DNA of 21,222 nucleotides, taken from positions 1 through 21,222 of IMG/VR virus record IMGVR_UViG_3300000367_000007; one strand, 5' to 3'. This stretch comes from a virus. A program made the position numbers and the translations under genes. This document shows, in pieces, positions 1-13,800 of this stretch. The notes below the pieces were generated by a model, which did not search any database, was not told the origin of the DNA, and worked only from the letters and a program-made list of their open reading frames with translations. Numbering within the stretch: position 1 is the first letter of the stretch; every line of letters starts with the position of its first letter.

Positions 1-2487
1 GTAGGCGTTGAAAAGGATGAAGACTTTGGACACCCAGAAAAGCTCTTGTCTATTGCAATCAGTTACTCAGAATCCTCGGCTATTGTCATCGGCGAGTGCG
101 GGCTTCGGGAGCCTAAAGTGCTCTCGATGCTCGCTGAAGTGCTACGTAGAAAAAGAACAATCTGGCACAACGCGGCCTATGACCTTGGTGTTCTCTACAA
201 ACTTGGAGTCGTTAATACAAGGGCATACTGGTGTACCATGCTTGCGTCCTACTGCTTGGACGAACGCGGGGGAACCCACGGTCTAAAGTATCTGGCGAAG
301 GAATTACTAGGAGCGCCTGACTGGGACTCCGAACTTAAGGAAGCAGGAGGATTCAATGACGCCCCCCGTAATGTACTCTACAAATATAACGCTTACGACG
401 CCGTGGCTACGCTTCGACTTTTTAATCAGCAGAGAGACCACCCAGAGTGGGACGGAGAGGCATCTAAACTTAACGATTTCCTGCTCAAAGCACAACATTG
501 CCTCATGCATGTCGCAGGAGAGGGAATCCGAATCGACACTGTGGCACTTGCAGAACTAAAGGAGACTCTTGAACTAGATATCTACCGTATGGTCAAGGAT
601 CTACAACCACAGGGAGGGCAATGGCTGGATACTTTGGGATCAAATGCTCTAGAGATTGCTAAGGCCAAGTACAAAGATAGATACTTCAATCCTAACTCCC
701 CGAAGCAGGTTCAAGAAAGGCTCAGGGAGCTGGGTGTCAAGGTACAGTCAACTGACGTCGAGCATCTGACTGAAGTAACTAACACCATTGACTCTAGGCT
801 AGAGAAGCCTATTGATGATGCTACAAAGACTAAGCTCGCAGCAGTATATAACTTCTGTAAGGACATTCTAGAATACAGAAAGGTTATGAAATTATATGGA
901 ACGTATGTCAAAGGCGTTGAAACTCGGCTTCATAAAGGGAGAATACACACGACGTATCTTCTCCACGGAACCACTACAGGCAGAACATCAAGTCGTAATA
1001 TTAACATCCAAAACGTCCCTCGTGGGGAGAAAATACGGAAAATTTACATACCTGACGACGGCAACGTCTTTATCCAGTGTTTAGTTCCTGGTACTCGTAT
1101 CCTTAAAGATGACCTCACATGGGAACCTATAGAAAATATACAAGCAGGCGATCAGCTTATAGGATTCGATGAGAGGCTAACAGGTAGAGAGCATAAGATG
1201 CGTCGTAGTGTAGCAGAATCTACAACTACCGCGATCAAGCCTTGCTATGAGATAGTAACGGATAAGGGTACCGTAGTAGCTAGTGAAGAACATATGTGGC
1301 TAGCTCGTAGACATATGCCTAATTGGAATCAGGCAGCGCAGAGTCATGGAAATAGAAAGTGGATAAGAACCGATACACTCAGAGAAAATGACATCATAAG
1401 CTTCTATGTGAAGCCTTGGGAGACTGAGGACTCATGGGAGGCTGGATGGTTAGCAGGATTTCTGGATGGTGAGGGGTATTTAAATACTCATGTTGGATTT
1501 GGTCAGAATCCTGGGTTTGTAGCAGATAAAGCCCTTGGGCTGCTTATAGCTCGGGGGTACGATATTACAAGACATAAAACAGGTACCCAAAGTTGTGACC
1601 ATTATGTAATCAACGGATCAATTGGAGAGCATTTAAGACTAATAGGAAGTACTAGACCAGTTCGTATGTTAGATAAATCATGGCGTCTTTGGAAGGATAG
1701 AAGAAGTTGGGGTAAACGGTCTAAAGGAGCCAAAGTATTAGAAATAAATTATATGGGAGAGCAAGAAGTGATTGCTCTCCAAACATCCACAAGAACTTTT
1801 ATTGCAGAGGGGTTGATGAGCCATAATTGTGATTATAAAAATATTGAGGGCCGAATTGTATTCCACTTATCGGGGTGCGAACGTGGTCGCGACATTCTCG
1901 AATCGGGACGCGACATTCATGGTGAGGTTGCTGCCCAGGCATTTGGCAACTCGTTTACCAAAGAACAAAGAGTCTACGCCAAGACCGTTGTACACGGTGT
2001 CAACTATGGTAGAACGCCTCATGGGATTGCAAAAGACCCGAGACTTGGCCTCTCGCTATCTGAGGCCAACGAGCTATTCCTCGCCTACGCTAGACTAGTA
2101 CCAGAAGTAATCCAGTGGCACAAAGAGATGCAGACTAGGATCTTTAGTCACCAAGACCTGGTGACACCATTCGGTAGGAAGCGTCGGTTCGCTCTAGTTA
2201 CGAGAGACAACAGAGAGGACGTATACAAGGAGGGACTGGCATTCCTACCACAGAGTATCGCTAGCGATATCACACTCCACTCATGCATCGAACTATGGGA
2301 ACGCGGCTTTATGATAAGGAACTTTGTCCACGATAGCGTACTCATAGAGGCACCACAGGAGAAGGCTGAAATCCTAGCGATGGATGCTAAAGCTATCATG
2401 GAAGATGTAGCACGTAAAGTCTACACAGACTGGATTAAGTTTGAAGTAGACACCGAAGTAGGGCGAAACTGGGGAGTCCTCGTATGA
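1..2487 (+). CDS. polA: Family A DNA polymerase with 3'-5' exonuclease, intein-containing, 5' partial
   Basis: Replicative phage DNA polymerase. The frame is open from base 1, so the true start and exonuclease motif I lie upstream; the TTG at 46 is internal. Counting from codon 46 as residue 1, exonuclease motif II is HNAAYD (41-46) and motif III is YNAYD (114-118), the DEDDy pattern. The polymerase palm begins with TGRTSSRNINIQNVPR (311-326). Motif A is DYKNIEGR, directly after the intein. Motif B is RVYAKTVVHGVNYG: it has the Arg, Lys and Tyr of E. coli R754, K758 and Y766, but His (codon 1993-1995) at F762. Motif C is VHDS (2329-2337), with Ser in place of the usual Glu. The C-terminus GRNWGVLV is typical. 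Without the intein at least 578 residues remain, a normal phage size with no 5'-3' nuclease domain visible. The next gene overlaps by ATGA. Confidence 0.96.
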   Translation, partial: VGVEKDEDFGHPEKLLSIAISYSESSAIVIGECGLREPKVLSMLAEVLRRKRTIWHNAAYDLGVLYKLGVVNTRAYWCTMLASYCLDERGGTHGLKYLAKELLGAPDWDSELKEAGGFNDAPRNVLYKYNAYDAVATLRLFNQQRDHPEWDGEASKLNDFLLKAQHCLMHVAGEGIRIDTVALAELKETLELDIYRMVKDLQPQGGQWLDTLGSNALEIAKAKYKDRYFNPNSPKQVQERLRELGVKVQSTDVEHLTEVTNTIDSRLEKPIDDATKTKLAAVYNFCKDILEYRKVMKLYGTYVKGVETRLHKGRIHTTYLLHGTTTGRTSSRNINIQNVPRGEKIRKIYIPDDGNVFIQCLVPGTRILKDDLTWEPIENIQAGDQLIGFDERLTGREHKMRRSVAESTTTAIKPCYEIVTDKGTVVASEEHMWLARRHMPNWNQAAQSHGNRKWIRTDTLRENDIISFYVKPWETEDSWEAGWLAGFLDGEGYLNTHVGFGQNPGFVADKALGLLIARGYDITRHKTGTQSCDHYVINGSIGEHLRLIGSTRPVRMLDKSWRLWKDRRSWGKRSKGAKVLEINYMGEQEVIALQTSTRTFIAEGLMSHNCDYKNIEGRIVFHLSGCERGRDILESGRDIHGEVAAQAFGNSFTKEQRVYAKTVVHGVNYGRTPHGIAKDPRLGLSLSEANELFLAYARLVPEVIQWHKEMQTRIFSHQDLVTPFGRKRRFALVTRDNREDVYKEGLAFLPQSIASDITLHSCIELWERGFMIRNFVHDSVLIEAPQEKAEILAMDAKAIMEDVARKVYTDWIKFEVDTEVGRNWGVLV
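1078..1827 (+). mobile_element. Intein with single-motif LAGLIDADG endonuclease domain, inserted at polymerase motif A
   Basis: A 250-residue in-frame insertion that removes itself by protein splicing. It starts with Cys1 (codon 1078-1080) in block A, CLVPGTRIL. Block B is VASEEHMWLA with the conserved His. The LAGLIDADG motif GWLAGFLDGEG is at 1444-1476. The end is TRTFIAEGLMSHN, blocks F and G, with the terminal His-Asn, followed by Cys+1 (1828-1830). All residues needed for class 1 splicing are present. Ligation joins FIQ to CDYKNIEGR, so Cys+1 stays next to the catalytic Asp of motif A. Only one LAGLIDADG motif is visible, so the nuclease would have to act as a dimer or is reduced. The part around the nuclease motif is lower in G+C (25 of 60 at 1441-1500) than the polymerase after it (32 of 60 at 2041-2100), which fits separate origin. 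Confidence 0.95.
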
Positions 2488-3569: not shown

Positions 3570-3904
3570 TGGATATGAATCTGTACCAGAAGAAGGCTCG
3601 TCAGACTGCTATCTACCCTGACCAGGAAGACCTTGGAGGACTTCTGTACGTTACACTGGGGATGGTAGGTGAGGCCGGTGAAATAGCTAATAAGGTTAAG
3701 AAGATCCTTCGAGATGACCATGGCTTTATAACTCTTGATCGCAAGTCAGAGATCCTACAGGAGTTGGGTGACCTCCTGTGGTATGTTTCCCAGGTTGCGA
3801 CTGAGCTTGACACTCAGCTTAGTGCCGTAGCAGTAGCTAATCTACAGAAGTTGTACGCACGTAAGTCTGATGGTACTCTTAGTGGTTCGGGCGATGCTCG
3901 CTAG
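3569..3904 (+). CDS. MazG-like nucleoside triphosphate pyrophosphohydrolase
   Basis: All-alpha NTP pyrophosphohydrolase family; it would hydrolyse nucleoside triphosphates to monophosphates, perhaps removing abnormal nucleotides or altering (p)ppGpp signalling as proposed for phage MazG proteins. The 111-residue protein has the metal-binding pattern GEAGEIANKVKK (Glu35, Glu38) and later ELGDLLWY (Glu65, Asp68), spaced as in single-domain MazG. The first helix LYQKKARQTAIYP is also typical of the family. The start is coupled by TAATG, with a GAGG site five bases upstream. The C-terminal tail (DGTLSGSGDAR) is flexible and lies beyond the conserved fold. Confidence 0.9.
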   Translation: MDMNLYQKKARQTAIYPDQEDLGGLLYVTLGMVGEAGEIANKVKKILRDDHGFITLDRKSEILQELGDLLWYVSQVATELDTQLSAVAVANLQKLYARKSDGTLSGSGDAR

Positions 3905-4067
3905 AAAGCTTGACAAACCAACAGGTAGGCCCGTAAAGGTCTACGGGCCTACCTGGGGTCATTCACATGCACCGCGTAATACTAGTGGTAACTTTATACT
4001 AGAGAAGATTGCTGGTCATAAACCTAGTGATGTGTATACTGTTCCTACTGGCAGAAGCCGTCAGTAG
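3894..4067 (+). CDS. Hypothetical protein, 57 aa
   Basis: Last plus-strand frame before the block switch. ATG 3894 overlaps the MazG-like stop; an earlier in-frame ATG at 3870 would lengthen the overlap without a better ribosome binding site. The product is basic and small (KPTGRPVKVYGPTWGHSHAPR, then NFILEKIAGHKPSDVYTVPTG), with no recognised family. Codon use resembles the neighbours, which is the main support. It contains the 13-bp hairpin at 3923-3954 and ends inside the next hairpin, so part or all of it could be a structured 3' untranslated region instead. Confidence 0.5.
   Translation: MLARKLDKPTGRPVKVYGPTWGHSHAPRNTSGNFILEKIAGHKPSDVYTVPTGRSRQ
3923..3954 (+). repeat. 13-bp perfect hairpin with 6-base loop
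   Basis: Arms AGGTAGGCCCGTA (3923-3935) and TACGGGCCTACCT (3942-3954) are exact reverse complements around AAGGTC. It is very stable but followed by GGGGTC, not a T-run. It lies 19 bases past the MazG-like stop, so it may act as a U-less terminator or an mRNA stabiliser for the replication operon. Confidence 0.7.
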
Positions 4068-4882: not shown

Positions 4883-5656
4883 CTATCCTTTGAATGCGCC
4901 GTTGGTGAGCATCCTTAGTTGGGCAGGACTAATTCTGTTGATGACGTTGGACTCCATGGCGGGGCCATTGGTCATCTCTCGATACAGAGTGGGTGTAAGG
5001 TGGAAGCCGTACCCACCAGCCGATACTGCCCAAATCTGATTGAGTCCGTCGGGCTGGAAGAACTTATACATAATCTCCCTCTCCTTCTTGATATCTGAGG
5101 CAGGCATGTCGCCGCCACGAATCCTACTGACTATGGATCTGAACTGAGTCATGTTCATCTGTGGGCTAGAGAATCTTGGATCAATCTTTCTAGCAGTCCA
5201 TTCCAGATGACCAGGAGCCATGATCGTAGGTTGCTTCATCTCATCAAGTAGGGCTGCGACAAGTCGGTAGTAGGTATCGAGACAGGCTGGGGACCAACGC
5301 TCGCCTACACCGTTGTTCGCTACCTCAATGCCGAAGCCGCTAGCATTGCCTGTGAGTCCTCTGTAACCGCCCTGACCGGCATGGTTAGCCCGACCGGAGG
5401 CTACGACCCACAGGAGTCCGTTACGGGCTATCTGGAACTGTGAGAGCGGACCAGGAACGTCGCTGCGTCCGTGGATGATGATGTTGAGCGCACCGTTATT
5501 ACCGCTGCGGGTATTCGATGCGTCGTGGTGACACACTACACAACGAGGGTTGAATGTAGTGTGTCCTCTGGACTCCCATCCACTAACGTAAGACACTCCA
5601 TGCTGAAGGTCTGCCCTACTTATAGCCCTCTGTATAAGGGCAACTTGTCTTGGCAT
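4883..5656 (-). CDS. Endolysin, N-acetylmuramoyl-L-alanine amidase (Amidase_2/PGRP)
   Basis: Peptidoglycan amidase that frees progeny by cutting between the muramic acid lactyl group and L-Ala. The 257-residue protein carries the Amidase_2 zinc fold at about residues 20-165: CVVCHHDAS (His43/44), NHAG (92), GFGIEVANNG (108-116), and PGHLEWTARKIDP (His150, Lys157, Asp159), the usual ligand and catalytic pattern. There is no signal peptide, so export needs a holin. The last 75 or so residues (from IMYKFFQPDGLN) are not a recognised cell-wall binding repeat, but that is where such a domain would sit. The start ATG 5656 is coupled to the upstream gene by TAATG and lacks a strong ribosome binding site. 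Confidence 0.93.
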   Translation of the reverse strand: MPRQVALIQRAISRADLQHGVSYVSGWESRGHTTFNPRCVVCHHDASNTRSGNNGALNIIIHGRSDVPGPLSQFQIARNGLLWVVASGRANHAGQGGYRGLTGNASGFGIEVANNGVGERWSPACLDTYYRLVAALLDEMKQPTIMAPGHLEWTARKIDPRFSSPQMNMTQFRSIVSRIRGGDMPASDIKKEREIMYKFFQPDGLNQIWAVSAGGYGFHLTPTLYREMTNGPAMESNVINRISPAQLRMLTNGAFKG

Positions 5657-6221: not shown

Positions 6222-6275
6222 TTACATAACTTTCCCTAGTTTATGAAGCGATCATAACCGCCCTATGTGTGCGGG

Positions 6276-8198
6276 CTAGGTAAGCGGCGCGTAACGCCAC
6301 GTCCCACCGCTGCGGACATACATGCGGTGGTTGGTCGAGTCGAGGGCGTGCATCCCGTCTCTGGCTCCGCCGGGGAAGTCGGCGTCGACCGGGACACCAG
6401 CCTTGGTGAACATCGACGAGTGGGGAACACCGTCCACGACAGCGTCGACCACCCGTGTGGTATTCACGAACGCGTTGCCGGACCCCTTGCGCCAGTTGCC
6501 GCCGATGACGGTCGCGGCGGCACCATGCACGCAGTGCTGGTGACTGGTGCCGACGGTGCCGCAGTCCAGGAGTGTCACGTCGGCGGTATCCAGTACGGCG
6601 AAGGCCCGGGCGGGGGCGTACGTGGGGGTGATTACCCGAGTGTTGCGGACGAGGCCCTTCATGCCGTCTTTGAGGACGAGGGGGTGGCTGGCGCCGATGT
6701 TGAGGATGTCCACCCCGTCCAGCAGCACGTCATCCATGAAACCTATAAAGGCGCCAGCACCCGCCCCTTTGCCGTTGAAGGTGGAGTTGCGCAGCTTGAA
6801 GTTCTTGCTGTTCGCCGCCACGCCGCCGGTCCAGAGTTGCGACTGGATGAGCAGGACATTGCCGGTCCCCGTGTAGTCGTAGAGGTGGTAGTCCGAAACC
6901 TCCACGTTGCTGGCCGGGCCGCTCAACGCAAACCCGAAGTTCCCGCTTATGCCGCGCGCTTCCACGCCCTGAACGGTGATGTTGTTCACGTTGGGGTTGC
7001 CGTCGAGGACAGCGCTGCCCGAGACGGTGGACACGATCACCCCGGCCCGGGCATTGCGAATCTTCCAGTCCCGCAACGTAATGTCGTCTATGCTATGGAT
7101 GCGCCCGTTGGGCTCAAGGTCGATCCCGGCGCGGGGCAAGGTGCGGTCCACCGTGTCAATGTCAAACCGCGCCAGCACGATCCGCTTGCCCTGCACGATA
7201 GATACGCCCTGTCGCCCACAGCGGACCGCACGGAAGTTGTGCGCGACCAGATCCTCGGTCGGGTACATCTGCGTGACGTTGCCGCCCCCGTCGGTCGTGT
7301 CCTGCCCTCCCCCGATGTAAAGCGCGTCGGTGTAGATGTCGTGCGCCCACACGTCGTCGATCGCTCCCTTGACCACCCCTGACCAGCGGATGCCGAAAGC
7401 GTTGCCGTCACCGGGGACGTCAGGCCAAGTCGGGCGGCCTTGCGCGTCGGTGTTCCCAGCGGCGATCTCCGTACGGTTGCCGTCGAGCGTCAGGTTGGCG
7501 ATGGACACGTCGTGGATCTGCGCCTGCTGGTTCGTGGAGACGCTTCGCAGGATGCTGTAGTGCGCGACCCCGCTGGGGTTCTCGATGCCCAACTTCAATA
7601 CGCTGTCAGGCCCCTTGCCGGCGATGTGCGTGCCACCGTGGAAGATCAGCGGCAACACGCGGAACGGGTCAGACGTGGGGATCTCGACAGCGCCCAGGCC
7701 GGCCGCGCCGATGTCGTCAAGGATGCTCTGGATGATGGCGTGGTTCTCGGTGGCGGTCTTGCCAGGCGAGGCCCCGCGCTGCGCGATGTTGATTGGCGAG
7801 TGGATCAGCGGGACGGCGTACGCCTCGATAGCGGCGTCTGCATCCGGTTTCCGCACGAAGCCTGTATCTGGATGATTAGCGTCTGAGCGAAACTCTGCAT
7901 CAATTGCGGTAGGTAGTGGATGCCATTTTGTAGGGCTCGTAGTAGGTTTATCGCCGGTAGTTGTGACTAGTGAAACGAAGTATCCTCCGTCATCATCCAC
8001 AATCATACGTGGCGGATATTCCGTGTTTGCATCCCACTCTACAGGACTAGCTAGTACCCATCCTTCGGCCGCAACAATATCAAGTACAGCGCCGACAACA
8101 TCGGCTATACCTTGCTCAATACGTTTTAACTCTTCAGCAGTTATAGGAGTATCAAGTTGTGGAAAGTTTACCCAATCTTTAGTGTTAAAGACTACCAT
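6276..8198 (-). CDS. Tail spike / receptor-binding protein with right-handed beta-helix
   Basis: Likely the receptor-binding or polysaccharide-degrading spike of the tail. Residues 1-113 form an anchor (NTKDWVNFPQLDTPITAEELKR...) followed by a linker; from about 130 the sequence is repetitive short strands with Asn and Gly turns (DVSIANLTLDGN, ITLRDWKIRNARAGVIVS, VLLDGVDILNIG), typical of pectate-lyase-like parallel beta-helices. The end (LDSTNHRMYVRSGGTWRYAPL) resembles a small C-terminal fibre domain. AGGAG stands seven bases before ATG 8198, which overlaps the hub stop in TAATG. Base composition jumps at about 7860: the N-terminal part matches the neighbours, the rest is strongly GC-rich. 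This fits module exchange of the host-recognition domain. Catalytic residues cannot be assigned by eye. Confidence 0.85.
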   Translation of the reverse strand: MVVFNTKDWVNFPQLDTPITAEELKRIEQGIADVVGAVLDIVAAEGWVLASPVEWDANTEYPPRMIVDDDGGYFVSLVTTTGDKPTTSPTKWHPLPTAIDAEFRSDANHPDTGFVRKPDADAAIEAYAVPLIHSPINIAQRGASPGKTATENHAIIQSILDDIGAAGLGAVEIPTSDPFRVLPLIFHGGTHIAGKGPDSVLKLGIENPSGVAHYSILRSVSTNQQAQIHDVSIANLTLDGNRTEIAAGNTDAQGRPTWPDVPGDGNAFGIRWSGVVKGAIDDVWAHDIYTDALYIGGGQDTTDGGGNVTQMYPTEDLVAHNFRAVRCGRQGVSIVQGKRIVLARFDIDTVDRTLPRAGIDLEPNGRIHSIDDITLRDWKIRNARAGVIVSTVSGSAVLDGNPNVNNITVQGVEARGISGNFGFALSGPASNVEVSDYHLYDYTGTGNVLLIQSQLWTGGVAANSKNFKLRNSTFNGKGAGAGAFIGFMDDVLLDGVDILNIGASHPLVLKDGMKGLVRNTRVITPTYAPARAFAVLDTADVTLLDCGTVGTSHQHCVHGAAATVIGGNWRKGSGNAFVNTTRVVDAVVDGVPHSSMFTKAGVPVDADFPGGARDGMHALDSTNHRMYVRSGGTWRYAPLT

Positions 8199-10883: not shown

Positions 10884-13800
10884 TAGCCCATCCTCCTGTC
10901 CCGTTCAATCTCTTCAATGAGGTCGTGAATGCCCTCTTGCACAGCTTCCTTAACCTTATCCATTGAGTCCTCACCAACAGGGCCTTCAAATGTTATCTGT
11001 ACTGCGCCTTCACTAATGATAATCTTAGTCTCTGTAGCAGTACCACCACCACTACGCCAGTTACTAGGCAGAGGGACTATGGCTTCATCTGTGCGGCCCT
11101 CAGCGACTCTGACAATGGTACCACCAGGGCGCTTGAGCGCAATACCACCAGTAGCAAGACCGGCAATTCTGTCCACAGAGCGTCGTATATCATTGAAGGT
11201 TCTACGACCACTGATAATATCGTCAATAATACGTGCCACCCGTTGTGCCCAAGTCTCGCCAGGACTAGCACCCTCTAGCGCGACTCCACGATTCCTGAAT
11301 ATATCAGTGATACGAGCGGCAATACCGCCTATGTTACCCTCTGCCAAGATTCTGCGATCTACACCACTATGAGCGGCTACAACACTAGCCATACTAGTAT
11401 TGACCTTATTAAGCTCTCGTACAGCTAGTATCATCTCATTGATAGCGTCTGTGCTTACTCCTGCTTGCTCACCGATAGAACGGAAGAATCTCAGAGCTTC
11501 CGGTTGCAGACCGTTAAGTGCTTGCGTAGCATCCATGACTCCTATGATCGCAGCCATGTTAGCTAGCTCTGCGTCAGTTACAGCCCTAACAGCACCCTCT
11601 AGCTCGTTCTCCTTATTCCTTAACTCTTCGCTAAGCTGAGTCATTCTCTCCTGTGCATCATAGTATTCGGGAGAGAAGTCCAACCGCTCATTGTACGCAG
11701 TAGTCAGATCACGCTCTGCAAGAGCAAGTTCTATTTCCTTAAGGCGTAGTTCCTCCGCTGTTACAGTGGCTCCCTCATTAAGCTCAGTCAGACGCTCCCT
11801 AGCTAGAGCAAGTTCAATCTCAGCCATACGGAGTTCTCTAGCAGTAGGAACAGCAGTTGCCCGAGCCTCAGTTAGAGCCTGCTCTGCATCCTCTACACTC
11901 TTAAGTTTGTTAGCACGCTCTTCCTCAGTCTTAGCAAGTTCGACCTGTGCGTCAGCTAGATTAGCCTCAGCCTCGTACTTCATAAGCAGGCGAGCTACTT
12001 CATCATCAACAGAAGGTAGAATTCTGTTGACTCTAGCTAGCTCAGCCTGCGCCAAGTTAGACTTAGACTGAGCAGACTTGAACTCTGCATCAGCAACCTT
12101 GAAGGTAGCCTGAGCCTCATCAAGTCGTTGCTGCGCCTGTTGTATAGCAGAGTCGTCAGGTTGAGCATCACGCATCTCTTCGAGACTACGTGCAAGGTCT
12201 TCGACTCTAATCTCTTGCTGAAGGATCGCCAACTCATCTGCGATGCCGACCACAGGGGACCGCATATCTTCGAGTTCTTGTCTTATGTTTCTGACACGAA
12301 CCTGAGCATTGATCCATGCCTGCTCAGATTCAAGACTCATCTGCCGTCCTTGCATAGCAGCGAGCATGAACTCTTGTTTGGCCTCGTAGTGAGCCTGCTT
12401 CAATTGCCCTATCTCATCACCAATGATGCCTACCTGTGCTCTGGCATCCTCTAGATTACGCCTAGCCTGATCGAGTCCTTGTACCGCTCCTACAGCGTCA
12501 AGTATGATCCTATACTGATCTTGTACCAGCACACCCTTACCAGGCTCACCAGGAGTCCTGATGACCTCGAACATGGCATCTCTAATGAGAGCATTGATCC
12601 TGTCCAGAGGAATGACTGCCTCTGGCCCAGCCTCACCGATCAATGCATTCATTGGGCTGTTAACTATACCGCCCTGAGCCATTGCCCAGTGGTTGTGGTC
12701 AAAGTGCATCGCCCGTGTGATGCCGGTATAGAAGTGGTGCCGACCGTTCTTGATCTGCGTCGCACCACTAAGGCTAAGGATGAGTTCCTTAGTCTGTGCA
12801 AAGTAGTTGTCAGCAATCCACTTGTTAACGTCCAGGCGGGGTGGGATGTCAACAGCGCGGCCCATACCGTGATACGAGGGGTTCCCTGTGGCTGTAATGG
12901 CCCCCGGCCGGAAGCCTGAGTACAGGGGCAGACCGGGGAACCTGGTGTGCAGAGCGGCCATCATACGGGCCACACCGGGTGGCTGTCCGTCTATACCCAA
13001 TAGTTGTGGAGCAAGGTTCTCTTCCAGCCATTCGACTACTTTTTCACGTAAATAAGTAGCTGTTTGCGTACCTGCATGTCCGACCACAGGGCCTCTGTGA
13101 ACGAAGCTCGGTACCTTCGGTACGTCATCTACAGAAGCGAATCCGCCGGTCTGGAATCCTGGGATATCAAGTTCGTGTAGAGTCTGTGGATCAAGCTTCC
13201 TAGCTATTTCCTTACGTACAACAAGCTCACCAGGCTCCAACATAGCAGGGAATATGTCCCCACCACCATATCCAGGGATCTTTCCGCCGGTATGTAGATT
13301 GGTTATAGGCTGTCCTGATAGCCAACGCTTCTGTGCTAGGGTTACTCTGTCCCTACCCATACCTTCCAGTACGGGGTTAATGCCATCGGTTAGCGCGATA
13401 CTAAACTGACCAGCTATCCTGTGAACATCTCGTACACCTATTCCTAGTTGCTTAGCCAACTCACCGGCGGTAGCCTTACCACCAGACTTGGCATTAGCCT
13501 CCATCAAGCGCATACCTTGATTGAAGTCAAACAAGCCTGTAGATATACCTTCAGAGATAGCAGTAGTCATGCCCTCCTTCAAGGCATCCATCTGTGCTAC
13601 TGCCTCATTACTAGTACGCTCTGCACTACTAGTAAGCATTCTCTCCAGCTCTAGGAACTCTTCGTGGCTAGCATTAGCCATAACATGCATTGCAGCAGGA
13701 GCATCTTCGCCCATATCGTTGATTATATCAATAACATGACTAGCGCCGCGAGCAATAATAATCTGCATATTAGTCATGTAGTCGTTATGGGCTTCTTCCT

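Follow-up and report, generated by a model that had tools for sequence, protein, structure and literature searches.

A compositional step inside a viral tail spike gene points to a recombined beta-helix body

The DNA analysed here (the window) is the entire virus record IMGVR_UViG_3300000367_000007, 21,222 bases long. In its tail gene block the tail spike gene follows those for the tape measure, for a tail protein of 520 aa and for a hub-like protein with DUF5047, and precedes that of an amidase endolysin. The spike occupies the receptor-binding slot of this block, with the hub gene on one side and the lysis genes on the other, and this position matches that of receptor-binding genes in related actinophages. 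The Rhodococcus phages REQ1 and Jflix2 share the succession of tape measure, large tail protein, DUF5047-type hub, a further tail or hypothetical gene and endolysin; however, their slot gene is ~300 aa long and unlike the spike in sequence, and their loci, at ~66% GC, are unlike the window. In Reynauld, too, the corresponding slot is filled by another tail or hypothetical gene. The known relatives of the hub gene come from high-GC actinophages (GC3 0.76-0.94). On a related virus contig of lower GC content (L013:3693-7422) the hub gene is apparently split, its N-terminal part lying at 3693-4067 and the remainder from 5641 onward; of the two other reading frames between them, one encodes a short protein that resembles tail fibres and has GHTH-type repeats. 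Within the endolysin gene (4898-5530, minus strand) GC3 is 0.60 inside codons 43-253 vs 0.37 outside, a difference of 4.1 nats and thus weak evidence. The features of the spike gene are as follows:

6276..8198, minus strand: tail spike gene, an open reading frame of 640 aa with its ATG start at 8198 and its stop at 6276
7863..8198, minus strand: part of native composition, codons 1-112 (GC3 0.295; dinucleotide distance normal for the window)
7821..7871, minus strand: breakpoint interval from the GC3 change point, codons 110-126; within the linker that precedes the beta-helix
6276..7862, minus strand: high-GC, putatively imported body, codons 113-640 (GC3 0.858; delta* of segment 6258-7862)
6626..7802, minus strand: predicted right-handed parallel beta-helix, residues ~133-524 (alignment-based model and fold matches)
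7107..7328, minus strand: candidate active-site region with D291, R329, D360 and E362 (TDALYIG, GRQG, AGIDLEPN; 22-sequence alignment)
6276..6416, minus strand: C-terminal tip, residues 595-640 (match to Streptomyces phage Frankenweenie gp166)
6258..6275, minus strand: high-GC stretch of 18 bp that follows the stop and contains a GCCC/GGGC hairpin (GC segmentation)

The preliminary description had placed a sharp composition break near position 7860, preceded by 113 neighbour-like codons and followed by a strongly GC-rich remainder that ended at the stop codon. Most of this was borne out: GC content is 0.454 at 7860-8198, against 0.480 in the rest of the window, and 0.652 at 6276-7859 (at 7021-7080, G and C make up 38 of the 60 bases), while the best two-breakpoint GC segment spans 6258-7862 (0.653 inside, 0.458 in the flanks), with ends within 2 nats at 6249-6285 and 7835-7889. 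The 3' end has to be amended in part; the tract does end near the stop codon, but it runs ~18 bp further, through a short hairpin, and is then followed by 31% GC at 6222-6257. The GC3 change point falls after codon 112, where GC3 rises from 0.295 (codons 1-112) to 0.858 (codons 113-640) with a likelihood gain of 69.5 nats, compared to a maximum of 9.4 nats in 300 permutations. The change-point codons within 4 nats (110-126) lie in the linker and the beta-helix is confidently modelled from about residue 133, in keeping with the claim that the break sits at the boundary between anchor and helix. GC1 and GC2 are nearly flat across the break (0.62/0.44 before, 0.63/0.47 after); the step is therefore mostly a matter of synonymous choice, not of protein content. 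A GC1/GC2/GC3 profile like that of the body (0.63/0.47/0.86) is expected for genes of a genome with ~65% GC. Codons 127-640 contain neither a second break nor a gradient. All 19 other window genes examined have GC3 values of 0.27-0.56, and the highest GC3 of any 112-codon window within the other genes is 0.69.

The body also differs from its surroundings in measures corrected for base content. In the segment, dinucleotide bias is 1.18 for CpG (vs 0.76 in the rest of the window) and 0.60 for TpA (vs 1.12), which marks a foreign signature rather than a GC shift alone. The dinucleotide distance delta* of segment 6258-7862 amounts to 209, compared to 33-158 in 165 further windows of its size; the N-terminal part, with a distance of 97, is ordinary (139 +/- 44 in equal-sized windows). 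The codon usage of the body is fitted better by high-GC actinophages (-0.95 to -1.03 per codon) than by its own genome (-1.44), and for the N-terminal part the reverse holds, its own genome giving the better fit. Hence the two parts of the spike differ in origin by composition, codon usage and dinucleotide signature.

We surveyed 412 open reading frames of at least 200 aa from 82 loci, among which the spike has the largest GC3 step; no other exceeds a contrast of 0.5. Several of the runners-up clash with annotated genes in annotated records, and others look like over-long open reading frames. Since the spike ranks first in this survey, we rejected the notion that steps like this are a general rule of phage genes. 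No annotated tail or lysis gene in six related actinophages has a GC3 step of more than 8.6 nats. The step, its position, its rarity and the fold prediction for the body are direct results of the analysis. As a control of the method, the same statistic applied to polA marks codons 346-604 (12.6 nats), compared to a likely intein at residues 345-594, and so locates this element to within ~10 codons. The polA gene (46-2487) appears to carry this 250-aa intein at 1078-1827 (plus strand; CLVPGTR...SHN|C, with LAGFLDGEG resembling LAGLIDADG) just ahead of DYKNIEGR, a motif resembling motif A; its GC3 is 0.31 vs 0.49 in the host gene, Pfam support is weak, and a match to an intein-bearing NCBIfam family over residues 345-596 stays below the cut-off. 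A milder composition island occupies codons 1375-1513 of the tape measure gene (12557-12973, minus strand; GC3 0.67 vs 0.39, 20.5 nats). It overlaps a weak Peptidase_M15_4 match (E 0.05, with a query that was not cut on codon bounds), and a stretch resembling it is also present in L013.

The body has no Pfam match, yet it is a member of a widespread phage beta-helix family: it matches PHROG 14824, crAss001 gp22, phi674 gp19 and a Caballeronia plasmid gene that sits among glycosyltransferase genes. crAss001 gp22 (PDB 7qoj) and gp19 of Corynebacterium phage phi674 share the core sequence and the D / RQG / GIDxEP motif with the spike, though at 25-26% identity over ~185-227 residues only and with different N-terminal parts. 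The motif GIDxEPN is common to the family, and a DNA pattern for AGID-x-EPN retrieved 63 viral loci, many of which encode relatives of the body. D291 and R329, neither of them preselected by the pattern, are invariant in all 22 aligned sequences; the invariance of AGID and EPN (including D360 and E362) is given by construction, as these formed part of the search pattern. Structure prediction from the single sequence gave no confident fold (pLDDT 37), whereas a model built from the 22-sequence alignment is a parallel beta-helix at residues ~133-524 (pTM 0.75), as the preliminary description had proposed, with pLDDT values of 60-97 for most 10-residue blocks of fragment residues 20-390 (a few are lower) and low confidence beyond about residue 535. 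Foldseek searches of the PDB with this model returned the phi29 gp12, HK620 and Sf6 tailspikes, AlgE epimerases and polysaccharide hydrolases, so that epimerases and adhesins stand besides tailspike hydrolases among the best matches; among viral fold matches, many of which are tail spikes, beta-helices come out on top. phi29 gp12 and the HK620 and Sf6 tailspikes share the right-handed parallel beta-helix (E 1e-7 to 1e-5; query-normalised TM-score ~0.44-0.52), but their identity to the spike is only 9-14%, and they carry another N-terminal anchor and C-terminal tip. The predicted fold and the conserved residues make the body a candidate polysaccharide-cleaving enzyme.

The N-terminal part consists of a putative tail-anchoring N-terminus (~1-45) and a small domain (~48-95; limits set by eye), followed by the start of the linker. 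The N-terminus (WVNFPQLDTPITAEELKRIEQGIA) aligns to the start of Gordonia phage YorkOnyx gp40, a minor tail protein (residues 2-32, 42% over 31 aa); this resemblance to Gordonia phages covers a short stretch and has an E-value of ~3 database-wide. The last 46 residues, i.e. the tip, are 47% identical over 47 aa to the tail protein Frankenweenie gp166, a modest match (E 0.01). Anchor and tip hence resemble different phages, and separate homology searches of the two halves, as suggested earlier, gave different affinities: a Gordonia phage for the anchor and the widespread beta-helix family for the body. Protein scans covering viral contigs, queried with body, anchor and tip, and genome contigs, queried with the body, turned up no relative, and neither half had a close homologue in the collections searched.

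The compositional step, the foreign dinucleotide signature, the break in the linker and the differing affinities of anchor and tip together point to a replacement of the body, the tip and the 3' hairpin. We consider the spike to be chimeric, with a native anchor and a recombined body from a GC-rich source, likely an actinobacterial phage or prophage (probability roughly 80%). Codons 1-112, comprising anchor and small domain, would be native to a phage of 48% GC, and codons 113-640 plus ~18 bp 3' of the stop would have been gained via recombination from a donor of ~65% GC, most likely another actinobacterial phage or prophage. The acquired piece would be a parallel beta-helix with its C-terminal tip, little ameliorated since; the body may trimerise, bind and probably cleave a polysaccharide of the host surface, and its replacement may have altered host specificity. 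We infer the direction of the swap, the type of donor, the recency, the trimer, the enzyme activity and the effect on host range. Composition, codon usage, dinucleotides and the join in the linker agree with the recent swap from a high-GC source that the preliminary description had put forward, where 'recent' refers solely to the absence of amelioration. As the best sequence matches of the body span many kinds of phage and the Caballeronia plasmid gene, an actinobacterial donor is not established. The searches, which may miss nearby records and reached bacterial genomes only in part, yielded neither a donor nor a sister phage with another body on the same anchor. The hub gene is absent from the records carrying the best high-GC relatives of the body, which is uninformative by itself because these records may be fragments.

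The record is a virus contig of which no independent copy was found, and 1.6 kb of another genome could have been misjoined into it during metagenomic assembly. We regard this as improbable: it would take two independent misjoins, of which one happens to keep the reading frame within a domain linker and the second comes directly after the stop codon; the two junctions have no long repeat in common that might cause misassembly, only short chance matches; and the gene still sits where a receptor-binding protein would be expected. Just as improbable is an ancient chimera whose body composition has been kept high by selection, e.g. on codon choice or RNA structure. The relatives are too distant for dating the event, but GC3 in relatives of the same beta-helix ranges from 0.17 to 0.85 and mostly tracks their own flanks, so the fold has no need for high GC; moreover, the dinucleotide signature differs as well, and the body shows neither decay nor gradient. 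The preliminary description had named full-length relatives of the same architecture and composition as evidence against a swap. Where this is testable, relatives of the body show no break of this kind: ~39 phage open reading frames matching the body are mostly similar in GC content to their flanks, and no GC3 step among them is comparable to that of the spike, the maximum being 28 nats in an apparently over-extended reading frame (L042). Least probable is the opposite direction, in which an ancestral high-GC phage already had this body and the low-GC remainder of the genome, including the anchor, was put together around it. Those relatives of the hub gene that are known do belong to high-GC actinophages, but the low GC3 of all 19 other window genes examined and a second low-GC contig with a related hub gene (L013) suggest that the lineage is low-GC overall.

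A recombined body on a native anchor is an event of a known kind, since the shuffling of domains in tail spikes is well documented. These proteins belong to the classes richest in domain-level mosaicism, recent cases included (Smug et al. 2023, PMC10684548), and shared fibre modules have been described as well (PMC10579305). In the former study mosaicism was detected through shared homologous domains, and GC content goes unmentioned in its main text. Like the cases described there, the spike combines within one gene an anchor and a body that differ in affinity; unlike in those cases, the join is visible, without a known donor, as a compositional step inside that gene. The spike is an exceptionally clean case. 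Exchange points of receptor-binding proteins are usually inferred from alignments, whereas that of the spike is placed by composition alone, to within ~16 codons; the 3' end of the transcript seems to have been exchanged along with the body. Conceivably, though this is less likely than not, the lineage may even have switched recently to a host whose surface polysaccharide differs, having acquired a complete body together with its tip and 3' hairpin from a phage infecting a high-GC host, in which case the scar would mark the exchange nearly to the codon. Compositional scars of this type could be sought systematically; in viruses without sequenced relatives, they might reveal receptor-binding swaps and give an approximate date for them.
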